DNA of 23,233 nt from a virus. The notes under the pieces were generated by a model. That model made no database searches and was not told the origin of the DNA. It saw only the letters and a list, made by a program, of their open reading frames with translations. The position numbers and the translations under genes were made by a program. The stretch spans positions 1-23,233 of IMG/VR virus record IMGVR_UViG_3300046011_000062, one strand, 5' to 3'. This document shows, piece after piece, positions 2,429 to 22,752 of this stretch. Positions within the stretch are counted from its first letter, which is position 1. Each line of letters begins with the position of its first letter.

Positions 2429-4408
2429 TTACTCCGGGTTCAATCCGAATACCGATCCATAACCTAGCCTCATTGCTCGACGCTGAAGTTCTTGTGAGAT
2501 CGGAATAAGTTCTGCGTTGTTTGCTCGGCGCATCATCCTGGCAGCGAGCTTTGGATCAAGCATTGCATCAACAATAATCTCTCTAATCTTGTCATCTGGC
2601 CCTGAAAATAGCCAGTTAAAAGCAAGCGCACCTTGCCTCATAGCGGCAGGAACTTCACCGAACATTTGTTTGCCAATAGACGCGCCAATAAAGTTAGCAA
2701 TCGACATGTTCTTAAACGTATTCGACCCAGGTTCAGCAGTTAGACGAATTGTCGCACCTTCGTCTAGATCTTTGCCAACACGCCGCAACACAGCAACCTG
2801 TGTATCTGACAGCTTTGTGTCTTCGCCAAGATTCCTCAACGCTCTGACAAAACTAGGCTGCGACAGCATAAATTGACTAGCCTCTGTTGGCTCAGTCATC
2901 ACAGGAACTGTACCAGTTACCTTGGTGCGGAATGCCTGTGCTTCTTCCATACTCTCAATGGCCTTACTGGAAGCCGCATACTTTCTAAGATACTCACGAT
3001 ACCCCGGAGCCGCCGACTCAATCGTTTCATCGACAGCCCGAATAACACTTTCAAGCTGAGGCTTGGCGGCCTTAAAAGCGCCAGAAGTTGGCCCTCCGCT
3101 ATTGGATTTATCAAGAAGCCCCTGGGCGGCGATACGCAGGTCTTTTCGTATCTCATAAAGCTCATCAGGGGTTCTAGCGTTTGCGACTTCAGCCCTAGCG
3201 TCTTCCAACACCTGTTTGACAGTTTTGCGCTTGCCAACAGGCGAGGCTAGGATGTCATCAATTGTCTTGTTTACGTTAAGCGCAATAGCAGACTCGAAAG
3301 TTTCTGGAGATACCGTTACGTTAGCAAATGCTTGATCCCTCAACGGAGTGGTGACTTCATCGCGCTTAACCTTCGCCGCTGCAAGCGCCTCCTCATCTTT
3401 TGCCATGCGATCTAGGATTTTCGACCTAGCTTGATTGGCTTGCATTTGCTGTGCCGCGAACCGTCCAGTCGTATCAATACTGCGAACGGCAGGGACAGCT
3501 CCAGCCAATCCAATATCACGAGACGCCTGTGCAGTCGTAGGCTGATACCCAGGGACTCCTGGTTGATATGCTTCCATTCTTTGTGCTGCTGCTTCAGGAT
3601 CTCTTGCAAGTTGACGTAGCACGTTGCCAACAATCACCTCGCGCCCTCCCTCAGTAAACGGTCTGACAAGTTCTCGTCCACCTCGCAACGCTGCGCCTCC
3701 AGCGGTGGCAGCAGCAGCCCCAGCCGACGGAGCCAGCATCCCAGCTCCAAGGCCAGCAAGAACTTGTTCAACAGGCCCAGCGCCTTCTTCTCGCGTAAGA
3801 GCAGACGCACCAGCAGCAGCACCACCAGCAGCAGCTTGGAATCGAGGAGATTGAGTCAGTAACTCTTTTACCGCTTGCCCACCAGCAGCGGAAGGCGCGA
3901 ATTGCTCAACCGCTTGCGTTGCAGTCGGAGGAGTGACCATGGCCCCAGGTAACATTCGTCCGATACCTGCACCGCCAAGCACGCCGAATCCAGCGCCAGC
4001 AATATCTTGCACAACTCGCTCTTGAGGCGTCTTAGGCTCAGGCACTCCTGCTTTAGTCAGCAATGCTTGCTGTGCTTGAGATGGCATCGGAAGATTGCCG
4101 CCAAGCATGTTGACAAGCGACACAAGCGCATCAGAAGCCATCGTGGGCAAACTAAGCCCACCTGTAACAGCGGATCGACCAGTCAACCCAAGTTGCCGTC
4201 CAATCTGGCTCATAAGTTCTTGCGGGCGCTCCGGCGTTACAGCCTCGGCTACTTGTTTGGCCCCAGAAGCTACTGATTGAATGACCCGTTCGCCAGGCGA
4301 CATTTCGCCAGAGATGATTCGCAAGCCTTCTGTTGAAACATCCTTCAGCCGCCCCGCAGCAACAGCCTCAAGGTCTTTATCTGATAGCTTAGTTAGATCA
4401 ACCATCAT
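2429..4408 (-). CDS. Large internal virion / ejection-type structural protein (659 aa)
   Basis: I do not recognise a named family with certainty. The N-terminus (LTKLSDKDLEAVAAGRLKDV, residues 5-24) resembles a short helical motif found at the start of many podovirus internal virion proteins. Residues 135-160 and 190-245 are very rich in Gly and Ala and could be membrane-active or flexible. The rest, from about residue 250, is predicted helical and charged, with no Cys and no visible enzymatic motif. The start overlaps the upstream stop as ATGA at 4408-4405; a second ATG follows directly. Its size and place between other virion proteins and the tail fiber suggest a protein carried in the head and ejected with the DNA (inference from position, not from a catalytic signature). 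Confidence 0.7.
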   Translation of the reverse strand: MMVDLTKLSDKDLEAVAAGRLKDVSTEGLRIISGEMSPGERVIQSVASGAKQVAEAVTPERPQELMSQIGRQLGLTGRSAVTGGLSLPTMASDALVSLVNMLGGNLPMPSQAQQALLTKAGVPEPKTPQERVVQDIAGAGFGVLGGAGIGRMLPGAMVTPPTATQAVEQFAPSAAGGQAVKELLTQSPRFQAAAGGAAAGASALTREEGAGPVEQVLAGLGAGMLAPSAGAAAATAGGAALRGGRELVRPFTEGGREVIVGNVLRQLARDPEAAAQRMEAYQPGVPGYQPTTAQASRDIGLAGAVPAVRSIDTTGRFAAQQMQANQARSKILDRMAKDEEALAAAKVKRDEVTTPLRDQAFANVTVSPETFESAIALNVNKTIDDILASPVGKRKTVKQVLEDARAEVANARTPDELYEIRKDLRIAAQGLLDKSNSGGPTSGAFKAAKPQLESVIRAVDETIESAAPGYREYLRKYAASSKAIESMEEAQAFRTKVTGTVPVMTEPTEASQFMLSQPSFVRALRNLGEDTKLSDTQVAVLRRVGKDLDEGATIRLTAEPGSNTFKNMSIANFIGASIGKQMFGEVPAAMRQGALAFNWLFSGPDDKIREIIVDAMLDPKLAARMMRRANNAELIPISQELQRRAMRLGYGSVFGLNPE

Positions 4409-12412: not shown

Positions 12413-13651
12413 TTACAGCGCGGGATTTAGGTCAGCAACGATGCCCGAGGCAGCCTCATTGCGGGTTTCAAGAGTGAACTCAACCAGAAGCTGAGTTTTC
12501 TCGCTGTCGCCCGTTTTGGCCAGATCGTTAGTCTGGAAAGGACGCAGATACGCAAGCGCCATGTACTCAGGATCAAGCAGCAGGGCGTCACGGGTACGCA
12601 TGAAGCGATCCGGGACGATGCTAAGCGTACCAAAGTCGCCCATGTAAACATCAGCGGCACCGATAATCGTGGTGGGCTGATCGCCAGGGGCCATGTAACG
12701 CTGAGCAGCGATACCAGCAAACGCACTCGCTTTCTGCTTCAGACCGGAGTTGACGACCAGCATCGTGGGATTACCACCAGCGTCGTACACCAGCTTGATA
12801 ACGTCTTTCAGCAGAGTCTCGGTAAACGTGCGGGTAGCGCCGTCCGAACGGGTCGAAACACCGATAGTCGTCGGGTCAGTACCAGAAGTACCTTTCGACG
12901 TATTGGTTTTCAGCCACGACAGGATCGCGCCAAGTTTACGAGCAGTCGAGGAAGACCCAGCATCACGGCCTTGGTTGGCAGTGATAATGGTTTCCATATC
13001 GCGCTTAAGCTCGCTGGAAGCCTTTGAAAGCTGATAAGCCTTTTCAGACTTACGGCCAGCCTTGTTCACGGCCTCTAGCGTTCCTGAGACCTGAATTGTC
13101 TTTTGCGCAATTTGACAATAATTACCAAGACGAGTAGTCGGGCTAATCGTCGCACTCGTAGCGTCGTCTCCCTCAACGGCTGCATTCGCTGCCGTAGCAC
13201 TGGCGAGACTATCTGATTGCCATTCGTGGAAAACAGCAGTGGCTTTAGTCCGCGCAAGCGTGGACATAATAGGGGTTTCGGTAGGGCTGATGTCGTAAAT
13301 AACCGATTTGTTATCGCAAGGCTCTTTATCCTTGCTTCTATCGCTTTCACGATAGTCCAGACTATCTCATCGCTTTCGCGTCGGGCGCTCGTGGGCAGAT
13401 TATTCTTTCGTCACTGCCTAGTCGTTGAACCTTCCGTGTCCCTGGGCCTTTTGGCTTACATACACGACTTGGCTGCTGATTGCCCAATCCTTGAGATTGT
13501 TACGCTTTGGTACTCAAGGCTCTAAGGGGTTTCCAGCAATTCACCCGATTATTCAACGATGCCTAGCAAACACTAAACATCGAGGGGACTGTATTTAATC
13601 CGTGAGGTCTTCGCGCTGGCCAATGGCCGTATGTGCGGTAAAGGTAGGCAT
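12413..13651 (-). CDS. Major capsid protein, SU10-like, in two exons (314 aa after splicing)
   Basis: The coding sequence is a join of 13651-13598 (18 codons) and 13303-12413 (296 codons plus stop), interrupted by a 294-nt group I intron. Exon 1 encodes MPTFTAHTAIGQREDLTD and exon 2 opens VIYDISPTETPIMSTLAR. Joined, they give the conserved capsid N-terminus EDL(S/T)D-(V/I)IY-(D/N)ISPTETP of the SU10-type HK97-fold capsid proteins. Later features fit: TKATAVFHEWQSDSLA, a DMETIITANQGRDAG helix (about residue 120), a MLVVNSGLKQKASAFAG segment and a PDRFMRTRDALLLDPEYMALAYLRPF region near the C-terminus. The exon 1 start has AGGA with 7 nt spacing, 9 nt after the scaffold stop. A call starting at the internal ATG 13267 would lose 30 residues. 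Roughly 415 copies per head would be expected for a T=7 shell, so splicing must be efficient (inference). Confidence 0.88.
13304..13597 (-). ncRNA. Group I self-splicing intron in the major capsid gene (294 nt, no homing endonuclease)
   Basis: The fold was built by hand. P1: exon GGAU pairs with intron GUCC, giving the U-G pair at the 5' splice site. P2: CGAUG/CAUCG. P3: UCGGGUG (13548-13542) with CGCCCGA (13387-13381), 7 bp. P4: UUGCUG (13539-13534) with CAGCAG (13478-13473). P5: CCUUGAG (13519-13513) with CUCAAGG (13495-13489). P6: CGUGU/ACACG capped by GCC-AAAA-GGC. P7: GACUA (13423-13419) with UAGUC (13364-13360), within the core signatures UUCAACGACUAGG and GAGAUAGUC. P7.1: GGCAG/CUGCC. 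P8: CGC-GAAA-GCG (13380-13371). P9: CUAUCG/CGAUAG (13355-13338), followed by a GCAAGG/CCUUGC hairpin. The last intron base is G. P7.1 between P7 and P3 suggests subgroup IA. The intron has no ORF, and its first three bases (TAA) are an in-frame stop for exon 1. Confidence 0.88.
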
Positions 13652-13660
13652 GATAAATTC

Positions 13661-14569
13661 CTAAAGAAATCGTTCAAAAAGATTCGCGGCGTCTCGGGCT
13701 TTGCCGGTCTTCCGCAGTTTGTTTCGATCAGCTTTATACGCATCCGATTCTGGATTGGCGGTCTTGCTCGATCCGGGCTTCATAACAGTAGGCGCAGCAG
13801 TAACCTTTTTAGTCACCTCTGCCTTGCCGTTAACCAGCTTGTCGTATTGAGCTGCCTTCCACAATGCCAGAACTGCGCGGCTGTCGTAAATGCCTGCAAG
13901 CTCTTGATCGCTGAATCCCAATGCCTTGGCGTAATTGCGAATATCGCCTCTTACACTGTCGGCCTTTTGCGGGTCTGCAAACTCGGGAATGTGCTGTGCA
14001 ATCTTCTGCGCTTCCTGAGCCAGATGAGCCTGCAATCGCTGCGAATGCTCCGCTTGTTGCATCTGTGCAATGCGTTGCTGTTCCGCTTGAATTGCTGCCA
14101 ACTGCTCTTTGCGCTGAACCTGCTCAGCCATTGCGACTGCATAACCGATGGGGTCAGTTTCTTTCAGAGCTTCAATGTTCTGCGGTTTGTTCTGCTCGGC
14201 TATAACTTTCTGAATAAGCTCAAGCCGTTGGGCATACTGGTCACGCAGTTGTTTTGCTTGCTCGACAGCGGCTCTCTCGGCCTCTACAGCCTTCCGTTGT
14301 TCTGCAAGCGCCTGGGTTTTCTGTGTGTAATCTGTGCCGAGCTGATACGACTTAATGAGATCGTCTAGGGTTACTTCGCGTTCCTCACCTGCGGCTTTCA
14401 CCCGGTAGCGCGGCGTTTCCTCGACTGGCTCAGTCTCTTGCTCAACCTGCGGTTCCTGCTCTGGAGCCTCGGGAGTCGGTTCCCCTTCCTCTGGCCCCAT
14501 CATGCCTAGAATCGCACTGGCTGCACTGTTTACATCTAGCGGCCCACTTCCATTCGGATTAGTGTCCAT
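13661..14569 (-). CDS. Capsid scaffolding protein (302 aa)
   Basis: Scaffolding proteins guide procapsid assembly and then leave or are degraded. This one has the usual layout: an acidic, Pro/Glu-rich low-complexity N-terminus (residues about 20-55), a segment RVKAAGEEREVTLDDLIKSY (about 56-75), a long Gln/Ala/Glu-rich coiled coil (about 80-190), and a basic C-terminus (KADRNKLRKTGKARDAANLF) suited to bind the capsid shell. The YRVKAAGEEREVTLDDL pattern is common in phage scaffold proteins. It lies directly upstream of the capsid gene with a 9-nt gap. The start has GAGG close to the ATG, overlapping the stop of the 75-aa gene. Confidence 0.8.
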   Translation of the reverse strand: MDTNPNGSGPLDVNSAASAILGMMGPEEGEPTPEAPEQEPQVEQETEPVEETPRYRVKAAGEEREVTLDDLIKSYQLGTDYTQKTQALAEQRKAVEAERAAVEQAKQLRDQYAQRLELIQKVIAEQNKPQNIEALKETDPIGYAVAMAEQVQRKEQLAAIQAEQQRIAQMQQAEHSQRLQAHLAQEAQKIAQHIPEFADPQKADSVRGDIRNYAKALGFSDQELAGIYDSRAVLALWKAAQYDKLVNGKAEVTKKVTAAPTVMKPGSSKTANPESDAYKADRNKLRKTGKARDAANLFERFL

Positions 14570-14575
14570 ACACCC

Positions 14576-14803
14576 TCAAAAGATTTTCCAGCGTTTTTGG
14601 GCAATGTCCGTAGTCTTCGCAATACTCTCGAAATGACTGCGGATTGATTGCAATGCAATAATCATTTTATAAGCATTTTCTCTTTTGTCAATATCATCTA
14701 TTTGCGAGGACTTTATAACATCCACATGATATTGCTCTAGCTTATCAAGTTCTGCGTTGAATTCCTCATCTCTGAGTAGATTTGCAGCACGCTCCGGCGT
14801 CAT
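14576..14803 (-). CDS. Small helical protein between portal and scaffold (75 aa)
   Basis: The function is not recognised. The protein is charged and predicted all-helical (RAANLLRDEEFNAELDKLEQ, then KRENAYKMIIALQSIRSHFE), with no Cys and no membrane segment. Small proteins of this kind with a LLxDExFxxxxDxLExxxVDxI pattern sit at this position in many podoviruses. The start overlaps the portal stop as ATGA and the stop overlaps the scaffold Shine-Dalgarno, so it is translated with the head genes. A chaperone or assembly-cofactor role is a guess from position. Confidence 0.75.
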   Translation of the reverse strand: MTPERAANLLRDEEFNAELDKLEQYHVDVIKSSQIDDIDKRENAYKMIIALQSIRSHFESIAKTTDIAQKRWKIF

Positions 14804-16863
14804 CCAGGGATCTCCACGTTAGACGATATCCCCGCACCAACCTTCGCGGCTTTCAACTGAGCCTCAACTTGAAACTCTTGTTGCTTCAACTGAAGTTCAG
14901 CAGCGGCCTTTTCTCTTGCAAGCTGAATGTCGGCTTGAGCTTTTAGACGTTGAGTTTCAATCGCAGCCATAGCCTTTTGCTGCTCGATCTGAATCTGAGC
15001 TTGAGCTTGCGCCATCATTGCATCCAACGCAGGATTACCCTGTTGCGGTGGAGGCTGGCTAAGCTGCTGGTCAATCTCAGGGGTGATTTCCTTGAAGAAC
15101 TCAGTCGAATCCTTGAACCCTGCGGCCTCGATAAATCTACCGAGAACAGCGCGATACTGGCCAACAGATACCAATGGGTTGTTAGGCCCGTAGGCTTGCA
15201 GAATCGCCTCTTGCTTGGCCATGACCATCTGGAGCATAGCCATCTGCTCGTTTTTGCTTCCTGTACCCAATCCTACGGAAATACTGAGATCGTACTGATT
15301 CGACCACTCTCGCGGATCCATTTCGACGAACTTGCCGCGCATCCTGATAAGACGGGGCTTGTCTTGGTACTTACAGAGAAGATGCAAGATGCCCTTGAAC
15401 AGGCTCTTGACACCCGTCTCAGCGAACAGTCGCGCAATCAACTCCAGCTTGCCCTGTGCAGCGCCCATAGTAGCCGCTACAGCAGCCGCAGTGACGTTTT
15501 GCAATACGTTAGGGTCTAGCCCCTGTTGAGCGTCTGAGACGCCTGTACGCTTGGCCTGGACGTTATCGAAATACCCCAGCATCGGGAATGCGCTGTCAGC
15601 GATATTAGGCACCACCATCGGCTGCACAGCACCGGCAGACTTCATCCGTACAACACCGCCCGGAGTGACGTTCAGCAGGTCGTCGAGGTTAACTTGCCCC
15701 TCGATAGCGCCCATCCGAGCATTGTTCGACAGATACAGGTTATCCAGCGACTGACGCACCAGCGTTGACTTGATGAGCTGGAGATCCATCGTCCGATCAG
15801 CCATCGACTGACCGAAGAACTTGTGCGGGATCGGGAATGGGCAGATCACATGGAACGGTACATAATCCACAGGCACATTGGCTTTAGACCCGTCAGCACG
15901 AGTCAGAATCATCTGATTGCTGAAAAAGATCTGCCGCAGCTCTGCTAAGCCGTCACCGTCGCTGTCAACGTAGATATAGCATTCGAATACCTCGACTTCT
16001 TGCATGGACTCGTCGAGACTTTCCTGCTCGAAAGGTTCTTCCCCAGGCGAATACCGAGCAATACGCTCCTCGGTAAAATCCAGCGAGTTATACGCAGGCA
16101 GGCTTGATACCTCGTCCCGGTCAAACCCCATCGCTACCAAGTCCGACCGTGGCACAAGGCGACGGTGAGCGCAGAACGGCATCTTCTGCTGGCCGAAAAC
16201 ACCTTTCTTGCTAACGATGAATTCCTCTGGCGGCACAGACTCAATCGCCACTCGACCAGACTTGTCCTTCTTTCGGACGGTAATGGTTGTTTTATTGGAC
16301 ACCATAGGCTGACCCATTGGGTCTAGCATTGGTTGCCCATCTGGCCCCATGATTTCCTCAGTCTCTACAGACTGGCCGACAATCTCTCGGGTGCCATCCA
16401 GCATCAACAATGCAATCTCATTGTCAGTGAGGTTCTGATACGTCTCCTCAGTGACATCGATCTGTTCTTCCCAATAGCACTTCAGCGTGCCGGTCTTGGC
16501 AACCAGCGCATCCCAAAACCATTGGTGCAGCAGCGCAAACCCTGGGTTGTCTTTGTAAAACACCCAGTTTCCATAATCGGTCGCTTGCTTAGCGCCTTCC
16601 TCATCCCCAGGGCCAACAGGCTCGTAACGGGCAATATCATCGCTCGCGGTGAATACGCGAATCAACTGAGGCAATGCACCGTCTACAGATTCGGCAACCT
16701 CGCCAGTGACAATCTGGCTGCGCCCGTCGATCTCATTGCCGTACGGGTTTCGTAGGTAGTAATTAAGCGCTTCAGCACGCTGGCCAGTTGTTTCGCTGTC
16801 CAGCATCCCAATAGCGTCGTCGATCTCCGCGCTTACGATTGCGGCAAGGCGTCCTTCATCCAT
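14800..16863 (-). CDS. Portal protein, P22-type (687 aa)
   Basis: The portal is the dodecameric ring at the head vertex through which DNA is packaged and ejected. Matching P22-type features in order are RSQIVTGEVAESVDGALPQL (about residues 48-67), VFYKDNPGFALLHQWFWDALV (about 100-120), SVPPEEFIVSK (about 210), the FHVICPFPIPHKFFGQSMAD stretch (about 340-360) followed by DLQLIKSTLVRQSLDNLYL, and DAQQGLDPNVLQNVTAAAV (about 440). The C-terminus is a long Gln/Ala-rich coiled coil that could form a barrel into the head, as in P22. The start at 16863 has GAGGG with 7 nt spacing and lies 31 nt inside the preceding small gene. Length is close to P22 gp1 (about 725 aa). Confidence 0.9.
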   Translation of the reverse strand: MDEGRLAAIVSAEIDDAIGMLDSETTGQRAEALNYYLRNPYGNEIDGRSQIVTGEVAESVDGALPQLIRVFTASDDIARYEPVGPGDEEGAKQATDYGNWVFYKDNPGFALLHQWFWDALVAKTGTLKCYWEEQIDVTEETYQNLTDNEIALLMLDGTREIVGQSVETEEIMGPDGQPMLDPMGQPMVSNKTTITVRKKDKSGRVAIESVPPEEFIVSKKGVFGQQKMPFCAHRRLVPRSDLVAMGFDRDEVSSLPAYNSLDFTEERIARYSPGEEPFEQESLDESMQEVEVFECYIYVDSDGDGLAELRQIFFSNQMILTRADGSKANVPVDYVPFHVICPFPIPHKFFGQSMADRTMDLQLIKSTLVRQSLDNLYLSNNARMGAIEGQVNLDDLLNVTPGGVVRMKSAGAVQPMVVPNIADSAFPMLGYFDNVQAKRTGVSDAQQGLDPNVLQNVTAAAVAATMGAAQGKLELIARLFAETGVKSLFKGILHLLCKYQDKPRLIRMRGKFVEMDPREWSNQYDLSISVGLGTGSKNEQMAMLQMVMAKQEAILQAYGPNNPLVSVGQYRAVLGRFIEAAGFKDSTEFFKEITPEIDQQLSQPPPQQGNPALDAMMAQAQAQIQIEQQKAMAAIETQRLKAQADIQLAREKAAAELQLKQQEFQVEAQLKAAKVGAGISSNVEIPG

Positions 16864-18262: not shown

Positions 18263-18579
18263 GTCACCGACATTTTCAACGGTTCACCTTCAGAATTAGC
18301 GTGTTCCAACACATGATGCTCACGCCACTGAGCACGGGTTTTCAGCCAAAATATCATTGCCGCCGTGTTTCCAGCCTTTGCCTGCTGGAAAAGCGTCTGT
18401 GCAACAGCAGCGTTGGCCTCCATCCGACCTTCAGTTAACTCCTTTTTGTAGTGCTTTGTAAGCGTGTCGTGGTCAATCTCTAGCTTGTCTGCAATGTCAA
18501 CATAGCGCACCCCGACAGCGGATAGCGTCTTGACTAGCCGACGATCCTCATCTGACGGTTTATGCCGCTTGCCTTGCAT
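18241..18579 (-). CDS. terS: Probable terminase small subunit (112 aa)
   Basis: The small subunit binds the packaging site and regulates TerL. The N-terminal region (residues about 8-42, DEDRRLVKTLSAVGVRYVDI then ADKLEIDHDTLTKHYKKEL) reads as a helix-turn-helix of the kind used for pac/cos recognition. The C-terminal part (AQTLFQQAKAGNTAAMIFWL then KTRAQWRE) is a pattern familiar from phage small terminases. It sits directly before terL and overlaps it by 22 nt; its own start overlaps the methyltransferase gene by 20 nt. The assignment rests on these motifs plus position. Confidence 0.8.
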   Translation of the reverse strand: MQGKRHKPSDEDRRLVKTLSAVGVRYVDIADKLEIDHDTLTKHYKKELTEGRMEANAAVAQTLFQQAKAGNTAAMIFWLKTRAQWREHHVLEHANSEGEPLKMSVTWASEKS

Positions 18580-19798
18580 TTTTTATATCCGAAAGTTCAT
18601 TAAATGACTGACCAGTTTCCTCTAGCGTCGCGGTCTTGCCGGTAAAGTCTTGCCAGCGTTTAATGATTACGTCGCAGTACTTTGGGTCAAGTTCCATCAA
18701 TCGTGACACGCGCCCGTTCTTCTCGGCAGCTATCATGGTTGTGCCAGAGCCGCCGAACGAGTCAAGCACGATATCGCCGCCCTTCGTGTTGTTCAGCAGT
18801 TGGTACTCAAACAACGCCACCGGCTTCATCGTCGGGTGTTCTGCGTTTCGAGACGGTCTATCAAATTCTAGGATTGTTGTTTGCTTTCGATCTGCTGCCC
18901 ACAGGTGTCCAGCACCATCCTTCCAACCGTACAGACATGGCTCGTGCTTCCAATGGTAATCCTGACGCCCCATCACCATCGTTTGCTTCTTCCAAATCAA
19001 ACACTGGCGCACCTTCCATCCAGCATCTTGAGCCGCGCCCCTAAAGTTATACCCTTCCGAGTCAGCATGCCAAATGTAAAACACCGCCCCAGCCTTCATA
19101 ACCGCATCCGCAGCGACATAACTATCCCGCAGAAACTGTCGAAACTGGTCGTCGCTCATTGAGTCGTTCTGAATCTTTAGGGCATCTTTTGTTTTACCCT
19201 CATAGGCAACGTTGTATGGAGGATCAGTCAGCCACATATCAACAGACTGACCTTGGCATAATTCCTCGAGCGCCTCAATACTAGTAGAGTCTCCACACAT
19301 CAACCGATGCTTGCCAAGCAGCCATACGTCACCCAACTTTGTGACGGGATCAACCGGAGCCTCTGGAACCTCGTCCTCGTCCGTCAGCCCTTCCGTCAAC
19401 TCTACCGGCATCAGCGCAGCAATCTCATCGGCTGAGAATCCGGTTAGGTCTGTGTCAAACCCTAGGTCTTTCAAGTCGGCAAGCTCAATCGCCAGCAGAC
19501 TGTTGTCCCAATCAGCGTTCAGCGCCAACTTATTGTCAGCCAGGATGTAAGCCTTGCGCTGCATCTCCGTAAGATGCGACAACCTTACAGCAGGAACCGT
19601 ATCTTTGCCTAGCTTGCGAGCAGCCATCACCCTGCCGTGGCCAGCAATAATACTGTTGTCGTCGGCTATCAAGACAGGATTGTTAAACCCGAACTCTTTG
19701 ATTGACGCTGCAATCTGTGCAACCTGCGCGTCCGAATGAGTCCTGGCGTTGTTAACATAAGGGATCAGATTTTCGATGCTGATCTGCTCTACCTGCAT
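18560..19798 (-). CDS. ParB-like domain fused to an adenine-type DNA methyltransferase (412 aa)
   Basis: Residues 1-95 form a ParB/sulfiredoxin-like domain: IENLIPYVNNARTHSD, then SIKEFGFNNPVLI and IIAGHGRVMAARKLG (GHGR at 53-56), known in phage ParB-nuclease fusions. Residues about 150-400 are a class beta methyltransferase: DPPY (192-195) comes before FGGSGTT (348-354), with the target-recognition region between. DPPY favours N6-adenine over N4-cytosine. The start chosen is the ATG at 19798, which has AGGAG with 5-6 nt spacing; an in-frame ATG at 19819 overlaps the oxygenase stop as ATGA but has no Shine-Dalgarno. Position next to the terminase suggests marking phage DNA against restriction or for packaging (inference). 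Confidence 0.9.
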   Translation of the reverse strand: MQVEQISIENLIPYVNNARTHSDAQVAQIAASIKEFGFNNPVLIADDNSIIAGHGRVMAARKLGKDTVPAVRLSHLTEMQRKAYILADNKLALNADWDNSLLAIELADLKDLGFDTDLTGFSADEIAALMPVELTEGLTDEDEVPEAPVDPVTKLGDVWLLGKHRLMCGDSTSIEALEELCQGQSVDMWLTDPPYNVAYEGKTKDALKIQNDSMSDDQFRQFLRDSYVAADAVMKAGAVFYIWHADSEGYNFRGAAQDAGWKVRQCLIWKKQTMVMGRQDYHWKHEPCLYGWKDGAGHLWAADRKQTTILEFDRPSRNAEHPTMKPVALFEYQLLNNTKGGDIVLDSFGGSGTTMIAAEKNGRVSRLMELDPKYCDVIIKRWQDFTGKTATLEETGQSFNELSDIKNARQAA

Positions 19799-19815
19799 AC
19801 GCACTCCTACTAAAG

Positions 19816-20499
19816 TCATGCGAGTTTACTACGCTTTGCTATCAATTCGCTAATATACGGGTCGTTTTCCTGTTCTTTGGTCGGCGCATATAACGCTCGC
19901 TGACGGTTATCTGTTATTCCTGGCTGGCATAGATAGTACATAGCTAGACTGTTTCTGGTGACGTTATCAGGACAATCTATCGGCTCCGGTAGTCCATGCC
20001 ATGAACCACGAGTATCGAAAATGACCGCTCGGTTAAATACTGGAGTGATCTCTTTTACCAACTTTTTCCTGCCGTCGTACAGTCCTAGATGCCCACCCCA
20101 GTCTTCATCCCAGTCCGGCGTCAGGTAAACGATGACGTTTAGCCTGCGCTGAAGGTTCAGCTTTGGATGGATGTTGTAATCCAGATGCACATTGAGCTTT
20201 CCACCTTTGCCGTGCTGATGGAGTCCACCACCGTGCAAACCGTAGTCAGCAATGATGTGCTCACCTATTAATGAGCCAAACTCGCCTGCAAGCCCCGCTA
20301 AGGTTGTCAACGCTCTGTAGGTGGCTGGCCCGAATCTCTGCCAGTTGTTGCAGGTTTGCTTGGTCTCTAACGGGTTGTCGTATCGGAACCAGCACGGGTC
20401 GTCTTGATGTGGGAACTCTGCGGCTATTTCGTCTGCCTCTTGTAGACAGTCATCAGCTATTGCATGCCAAAATGGCTTGTGGAATATCGTTAGGTTCAC
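19816..20499 (-). CDS. 2-oxoglutarate/Fe(II)-dependent dioxygenase (227 aa)
   Basis: The fold is a prolyl-4-hydroxylase-like double-stranded beta helix that uses 2-oxoglutarate, O2 and Fe(II). The iron ligands are visible as HxD in KLNVHLDYNIHP (H105, D107) and the distal His in GSWHGLPEP (H168); the 2-oxoglutarate-binding Arg is R182 in TRNSLAMYYL. NVIVYLTPDWDEDWGGHLGLYD (between residues 121 and 142; YLTPDWDEDWGGHLGLYD is typical) is also a family hallmark. The start is GTG, overlapping the upstream stop as GTGA, without a strong Shine-Dalgarno, so coupling is likely. Such enzymes are common in aquatic phages; the substrate could be a protein residue, a nucleobase or a lipopolysaccharide component, and nothing here decides it. 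Confidence 0.88.
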   Translation of the reverse strand: MNLTIFHKPFWHAIADDCLQEADEIAAEFPHQDDPCWFRYDNPLETKQTCNNWQRFGPATYRALTTLAGLAGEFGSLIGEHIIADYGLHGGGLHQHGKGGKLNVHLDYNIHPKLNLQRRLNVIVYLTPDWDEDWGGHLGLYDGRKKLVKEITPVFNRAVIFDTRGSWHGLPEPIDCPDNVTRNSLAMYYLCQPGITDNRQRALYAPTKEQENDPYISELIAKRSKLA

Positions 20500-21493: not shown

Positions 21494-22147
21494 TTAATCC
21501 TCCACATAATGTTCGAGATGACCAATCCGGCCACGTACCCCTATTTTACCCACTTCGTACAAAATGTCACGTGGTAGGAATTTCCAGAATCCATGCTCTA
21601 AATCGAATACCCGACCAGACTCCCATTGCCGCCAATGGAATTGCTGTATTTCTCCCAGCACACGCCTGATTTCAGGCACCAGCTCTCTTGAGAATGAATA
21701 GAGCCGGGTCATCAGCATTCCGTCTGTCCCGCACTCCTCCTGGCTAAACCCGGTCGGCAATCTCTCGCGGAAGGTCGCAAGTTTGTGACTCTCAGGGTCG
21801 AAGTCGTCCGTCAGCACATATCGCCCAGACAGTTTAAACACGCGATCAGCATAGATCGGCTGACGTAAAAGCTCCCTAGTGGTATACGCCTCTGTCGCTG
21901 ACTTTCGGAACCCAAGATTCCACGGTTTGCTGGCAACAAACTTGACATGCTCGTCATCCCAGAACGGGAATAATCTAGCCCTAGCTGGCAAACACCCCAC
22001 AAACGCGCTAGAAAGGGCTACAGGCGACGATTCTGCGATCCAGATCTCCGCAGTAGGGTAGCGCGTCCAAATCGATTCTAGCGTCTCCAATGTTTCCTGT
22101 AGACGACGATCATCGTTGCATATTGCGCTGTTGACGATAAACAGCAT
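21494..22147 (-). CDS. Glycosyltransferase-like protein (217 aa)
   Basis: A longer frame begins with GTG at 22174, but the ATG at 22147 has GGAGGG with 7 nt spacing and overlaps the upstream stop as TGATG, so it is preferred. The product begins MLFIVNSAICNDD and continues RRLQETLETLESIWTRYPTA, the pattern of a nucleotide-sugar binding fold, and contains VFKLSGRYVLTDDFD (about residues 103-117), a motif typical of GT-A-like proteins encoded near sugar genes of phages and giant viruses. A canonical DxD is less clear (DDFD at 114-117 is a candidate). It is paired with the preceding GT32-like gene, so both probably act on the same glycan. Confidence 0.65.
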   Translation of the reverse strand: MLFIVNSAICNDDRRLQETLETLESIWTRYPTAEIWIAESSPVALSSAFVGCLPARARLFPFWDDEHVKFVASKPWNLGFRKSATEAYTTRELLRQPIYADRVFKLSGRYVLTDDFDPESHKLATFRERLPTGFSQEECGTDGMLMTRLYSFSRELVPEIRRVLGEIQQFHWRQWESGRVFDLEHGFWKFLPRDILYEVGKIGVRGRIGHLEHYVED

Positions 22148-22752
22148 CACCAGACCCTCCTGGTGCTGTTCCACTCCTGAGTAGCGAAAACCTGTCCAGA
22201 ACCCTTGTACATCTCGCCAGCAAAGTGCTTCGGCAGAAAGTAATGACTGGGGTAAATGGTGATGTCTCTGAACTGGTGGTTATGGACGGTCTGGGTAAGT
22301 CTGACAGGCCCGGAGTATTGCCACGGCGGTAGGTTCCCAGGGTCTTGGTCGAGCATGTCTTGGATGATCTGACCTATAAGTGGGTGGTCTGGAACCGCCC
22401 CAACGACACCGTTGGCGATCAATCCAGGTCTGGAGATTTCGGACTCCCAGCAGGCGAATAGGTCTGGTTCCAGCAACCAGTCTTCCAAAGATCGCACACA
22501 CTCGGAATCAGCGTCTAACGCAATGCCGCCAAGCTCGTACAGGATCTCCCAGCGCATGCAGTCTGCTACACCAGGGAAGTTGCCCCAGTAGTGTCGCATC
22601 CGCTGTGCAAGCCTCCACCCACGTTGGAGTGACTTGTTGTTCCAAACCGTGACCTTGTAGTCAGGGTTCAGAAGCTTCCAAGTGTTGATCGCTGCGTGAG
22701 GGGTTTTTGATTCGTCTCCAACCCAGACAATGTGCAGGAGCTTGGGAATCAT
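22147..22752 (-). CDS. GT32-family glycosyltransferase, DxD type (201 aa)
   Basis: The start IPKLLHIVWVGD and the core GVADCMRWEILYELGGIALD followed by ADSE are hallmarks of the sugar-binding DxD region of family 32 (Och1 / capsular polysaccharide / toxin-type) glycosyltransferases; the DxD is D80-A81-D82 and the preceding Asp and Arg (D64, R67) match the donor-binding helix. The family transfers hexoses from nucleotide sugars. The ATG follows directly after the T-tract of an intrinsic terminator, and the only Shine-Dalgarno (AGGGG, 9 nt upstream) lies in the 3' arm of that hairpin. It overlaps the next glycosyltransferase gene as TGATG. Confidence 0.82.
   Translation of the reverse strand: MIPKLLHIVWVGDESKTPHAAINTWKLLNPDYKVTVWNNKSLQRGWRLAQRMRHYWGNFPGVADCMRWEILYELGGIALDADSECVRSLEDWLLEPDLFACWESEISRPGLIANGVVGAVPDHPLIGQIIQDMLDQDPGNLPPWQYSGPVRLTQTVHNHQFRDITIYPSHYFLPKHFAGEMYKGSGQVFATQEWNSTRRVW

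Follow-up and report, generated by a model that had tools for sequence, protein, structure and literature searches.

Group I introns have already been found in the capsid genes of phages, and the chemistry by which they splice is established. In mycobacteriophage LittleE, a group I-like intron of 819-820 bp lies in the major capsid gene, and its splicing was demonstrated by RT-PCR and N-terminal protein sequencing (PMC3706429). This intron carries a homing endonuclease gene on the opposite strand, which was reported to be LAGLIDADG-like (PMC3706429). The part of the same report that concerns lactococcal phage Tuc2009, a phage of another host lineage, places a group I intron in a capsid subunit gene, and we liken it to our case by description only (PMC3706429). 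The closest sequenced cores that we found belong to two isolated phages; 74-82 nt of these cores, no more than 28% of the intron length, match at 89-90% DNA identity. The phages are Pseudomonas phage KIL1, where the group I intron lies in a gene other than the capsid gene, the portal gene (its CDS is annotated as joined), and Acinetobacter phage YMC13/03/R2096, where the intron lies a short way upstream of the gene annotated as terminase.

In the present study, we analyzed a linear metagenomic virus contig of 23,233 bases from IMG/VR, the whole of which is called the window below. We found that the SU10-type major capsid gene on its minus strand is almost certainly interrupted at 13304-13597 by a group I intron of the self-splicing type, which has shrunk and lacks the endonuclease of its mobile, HNH-bearing family. 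The SU10-type capsid gene is a newly documented place for such introns; we found no description of an intron there in the open-access literature, which is weak evidence of absence. As in LittleE, exon 1 ends with U, the intron ends with G, and intronless relatives are known (PMC3706429). The LittleE intron carries an endonuclease gene, whereas that of the window does not, although its relatives at the same site do; in the relatives, the gene is an HNH gene on the sense strand within P2, and the phage lineage and the capsid gene are also different from those of LittleE (PMC3706429).

On the minus strand of the window, the terminase genes are followed by the SU10-type portal gene, the scaffold gene, and the capsid gene (Table 1). 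Adjoining the terminase genes, 18560-19819 (minus strand) encodes a protein with an N6/N4 DNA methylase domain and, scoring just under the cut-off, a ParB-like N-terminal domain. Upstream of the structural block, 22147-22752 (minus strand) encodes a sugar-transferase-like protein (PF04488), and its neighbor at 21494-22174 (minus strand) has no Pfam match.

Table 1. Positions in the window of the split capsid gene, its neighbors, and the elements of the predicted intron RNA
Feature	Position	Strand	Remarks
SU10-type portal	14800-16863	-	PF23899, E 1.6e-210
Scaffold	13661-14569	-	phrog_3927
Shine-Dalgarno-like AGGA	13659-13662	-	7 nt ahead of ATG 13651; read from sequence
Capsid exon 1, 18 codons, MPTFTAHTAIGQREDLTD	13598-13651	-	N-terminus as in intronless L002 except residue 17
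Predicted group I intron, 294 nt	13304-13597	-	In-frame TAA first, terminal G (omega-G) 13304 last; without long ORF
Capsid exon 2, VIYDISPTETP... through stop	12413-13303	-	296 codons + stop
RF00028 match, whole 253-position model	13338-13586	-	Rfam, 74.4 bits, E 1.8e-17
P1, exon GGAU (13601-13598) with internal guide GUCC (13589-13586)	13586-13601	-	U.G at 5' splice site
P2 hairpin, 10 bp	13557-13582	-	HNH gene in loop in relatives
P3, 5' arm UCGGGUG	13542-13548	-	3' arm 13381-13387; both-side changes at 3/7 pairs
P7, 3' arm UAGUC	13360-13364	-	Pairs with GACUA 13423-13419; invariant
Extra hairpin between P7 and P3, GGCAG...CUGCC	13394-13418	-	Covarying
P9 and next hairpin, CUAUCG/CGAUAG and GCAAGG/CCUUGC	13316-13355	-	Covarying

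When the unspliced sequence is read from ATG 13651, the final GAT of exon 1 is followed directly by TAA, the first intron codon, and stops are present in all three frames of the intron. Removal of 13597-13304 leaves a single frame of 314 amino acid residues, in which the exons meet between D18 and V19. The exon and intron coordinates, the length of 294 nt, and the in-frame join had all been given in the original prediction, and our re-reading found them correct.

The joined protein matched PF17236 (SU10_MCP) with an E value of 8.1e-101 over profile positions 6-291 of 292. It scored 337.8 bits, against 326.3 bits for exon 2 alone, and the alignment began at profile position 6 instead of position 17. 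The joined protein also matched phrog_1328 (major head protein; E 4.7e-109) and the solved capsid protein 9ny2 (E 3.9e-66). Relatives conserve its first 29 residues, part of which can be aligned with the solved capsids 9ny2 and 7z45, and the uninterrupted protein is present in one piece in phage records, at an identity of at most 75.8%. The 314-residue product would be the virion protein. Plain ORF calling shortens the protein by the first 29 residues, and hence there is a risk of mis-annotation in a marker gene. The capsid of the nearest isolate is that of Methylophilales phage Venkman (54%).

The group I identity, also part of the original prediction, agrees both with the full-length RF00028 match (Rfam cut-off, 50 bits), which is the sole Rfam match anywhere in the contig, and with covariation. 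For the latter, we compared 11 distinct core sequences from relatives at the same site, in which the helices from P3 to P9 could be named, with the P3/P7 pseudoknot. In the named helices, 98.4% of the cells are standard pairs, and both sides have changed in 27 of the 57 pairs. None of 500 shuffles equaled the real set, and slid partners were paired at 43% or less. RNAalifold independently recovered the same nested helices minus the P5 extension, with 26 of 47 pairs covarying. There is no variation in P7, where known group I introns bind guanosine, or in nearly all of P4, and thus these helices give no independent covariation test. The U.G pair at the splice site is present in all P1 helices examined; P1 has just 4 bp in the window versus 7 bp in some relatives. 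By eye, about 2 bp (GU with AC) of a possible P10 (3' exon against the guide sequence) can be seen, and a convincing helix could not be drawn. The endonuclease-bearing introns (L076 at about 1900-1925, L082, and L092) have an additional hairpin of 6-7 bp in the P1 loop, with a lineage-specific sequence, and this hairpin is absent from the compact introns, including that of the window.

According to the proposed mechanism, ribosomes would translate the short exon 1 and halt at UAA, the first codon of the intron. An in-frame stop shortly past the 5' splice site is usual in such introns and keeps ribosomes out (PMC3073962); all 25 introns at this site start with one (TAA, TGA, or TAG). The intron RNA would then fold, P1 (GGAU/GUCC) would position U13598 for attack by the guanosine bound in P7, and ligation of the exons would yield the 314-residue capsid protein. 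We infer that splicing occurs in infected cells, and the phage would have to splice its capsid mRNA for assembly.

One alternative is that the intron has decayed and no longer splices, in which case either the phage is defective or translation of the capsid protein starts from the internal ATG 13267. The short P1 and the lack of an endonuclease gene in the intron would suit this explanation. We consider it very unlikely: the core is complete and conserved, being identical in another contig (L089) and covarying with those of the relatives, and exon 1 retains the N-terminus of the intronless alleles. In addition, inspection of the sequence found no Shine-Dalgarno sequence ahead of ATG 13267, and a start there would cost the 29 conserved residues.

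Introns at the same site were gathered by a pattern scan of viral contigs and by Rfam scans. Apart from the window, 24 capsid loci contain an intron at the identical GAT codon, making 25 loci in total, with intron lengths of 232-966 nt. These relatives, together with a colinear intronless allele (L002), bear out the intron boundaries originally proposed. They also bear on the suggestion that the insert arose as a chimera during assembly or as a sequencing artefact; the window does come from a metagenomic contig, but the identical junction and intron occur in L089 and related introns occur in 23 further contigs, which leaves this suggestion a negligible probability. Seven further pattern matches (L088, L090, L091, L098, L101, L104, and L107) were rejected as introns since RF00028 matched none of them; in five, exon 1 continues without a break. 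L085 and L102 duplicate the contigs L076 and L078. As for copies in prophages or named genomes, there were four pattern matches in genome contigs, none of which had a group I match, and they were attributed to chance.

In 9 of the 24 loci (for example L076, L105, L082, L093, and L092), the P2 loop contains a long intact ORF of 225-234 codons from stop to stop. That of L076, the sole ORF scanned with profiles, encodes an HNH protein (PF01844, E 5.5e-6), and the others are its homologues. The final codons of the ORF make up the 3' arm of P2 (...TCT AGG CAT CAT TGA in L076), and the window has ...GCTAGGCATCGTTGA there. The enzyme of the T4 td intron belongs to the GIY-YIG class, whereas that of the window's relatives is HNH. 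As in td/I-TevI, the endonuclease frame overlaps a helix of its own intron, but the helix is P6a/P7 in td and P2 here (PMC3073962). In the introns of L086 (380 nt) and L108 (392 nt), just both ends of the HNH ORF are left and the core is as in L082; by their sequences, these two introns are deletion products. The remaining introns at the site are compact and without an endonuclease gene, and an ORF check of the 294-nt intron of the window found no endonuclease gene or other long ORF. Among L076, L082, and L093, pN/pS of the HNH gene is about 0.25-0.30, with synonymous change saturated; the low ratio indicates that the gene has been maintained as a protein by purifying selection. The original prediction stands as regards the group I intron and where it begins and ends, the reading frame, and the capsid gene, and was incomplete in that the intron very probably belongs, without an endonuclease of its own, to a mobile HNH family at the same codon.

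The intronless allele of L002 (IMGVR_UViG_3300036719_000531) is colinear with the window over the exact join and 97.2% identical (26 differences in 945). L002 cannot have been copied as cDNA from the spliced RNA of the window's allele, since the two differ in the last codons of exon 1 (ATT GAC in L002, ACG GAT in the window). Four of the 26 differences fall within the 7 bases that directly precede the intron site, compared with an expectation of about 0.2 by simple arithmetic. The change from ATT GAC to ACG GAT yields the form that pairs with the guide and replaces I with T at residue 17. This clustering fits flanking exon having been copied along with the intron. At this site, ATYGAY is present in all 78 close empty alleles; GGAT precedes the site in none of these 78 and in all 25 intron alleles. 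ACGGAT is nevertheless found in empty alleles of the wider family (L254, L259, L264, and others), and the motif alone is therefore no mark of past homing. We thus rejected GGAT as diagnostic of the intron; it is needed for P1. L254 and L259 are natural empty sites and not spliced cDNA, since their exon 2 differs by 11-13% from that of the intron-bearing L082. The intron carriers are a minority, 2 of 80 among the best 80 capsid relatives, and a scan of contigs for the uninterrupted motif gave at least 120 matches.

The introns of the window and L089 are identical (294/294), while exon 2 is 90% identical and the closest empty alleles by exon 2 are different (window and L002, 97.7%; L089 and L003, 98.9%). 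The upstream flanks of this pair are 97.8% identical, and thus plain recombination without homing could account for it. In the case of L076 and L105, the 948-nt introns with the HNH gene are 99.6% identical, and the identity of the flanks drops within tens of bases to 72% upstream and 77% downstream; by exon 2, their nearest relatives are separate empty alleles (L031 and L061). Such near-identity of introns between diverged capsid genes suggests that the introns have moved horizontally in recent times. On a tree of exon 2 minus its first 60 bases (109 rows, 21 of them intron-bearing), at least 10 changes between presence and absence of the intron are needed.

Ordinary phage recombination and vertical descent, and not endonuclease-driven homing, might be the main cause of this distribution. 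The near-identity of both intron and upstream flank in the window and L089 would be in line with this, as would the apparently clonal compact lineages L084/L095 and L094/L099/L109. We nevertheless regard it as unlikely in view of the rapid fall of identity on both sides of the L076/L105 intron, the purifying selection on the HNH gene, and the number of state changes that the capsid tree requires. Horizontal movement by homing is most likely, and the sequences are best read as those of a homing element whose endonuclease was subsequently lost. The full form of the family would encode the HNH homing endonuclease in the P2 loop and spread when an uninterrupted capsid gene is cut at the GAT codon, presumably the specificity of the enzyme, and the intron is copied in with some flanking exon. 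The direction would be from this form to the compact one, and the copy in the window would have moved by means of an endonuclease supplied in trans or by plain recombination.

The allele series, with 25 intron-bearing and dozens of empty alleles at one site, makes it possible to study, by simple tests in natural phage populations, how homing proceeds, how flanks are converted, and which capsid changes are linked to the intron. A major structural gene repeatedly tolerates the insertion of a ribozyme. As a tentative suggestion, the SU10-type capsid genes of environmental phages might be a running field case of the homing cycle, with empty, endonuclease-bearing, partly deleted, and compact orphan alleles at one codon and further introns elsewhere in the capsid gene, and the HNH enzyme might, in addition, damage rival phages in the same cell through cleavage of their capsid gene. 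The part of a report on PhiPA3 that deals with its intron endonuclease describes harm to a co-infecting phage (PMC11620839).

A second group I intron was observed at other capsid sites in L106 (after position 1284) and in L092 and L097 (after about 7367 in L092). These sites correspond to about residue 108 and about residue 240, and at both the exon letters are TACCT before and TAA after the junction. The two second-site introns resemble each other (190/270, about 70%) but not the intron shared with the window, as though a single element had passed from one to the other of two similar targets within the gene. In L111 (IMGVR_UViG_3300032288_001378), the capsid gene contains the intron at the site of the window and another frame break after NTYHE, past which there is a weak RF00028 match (20.8 bits, below the cut-off); this break is perhaps another intron site. 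The intron-bearing phage contig L093 also contains, at 3540-3658, a Betaproteobacteria-1 small RNA (RF02932, 95.8 bits), which may hint at betaproteobacteria as hosts.
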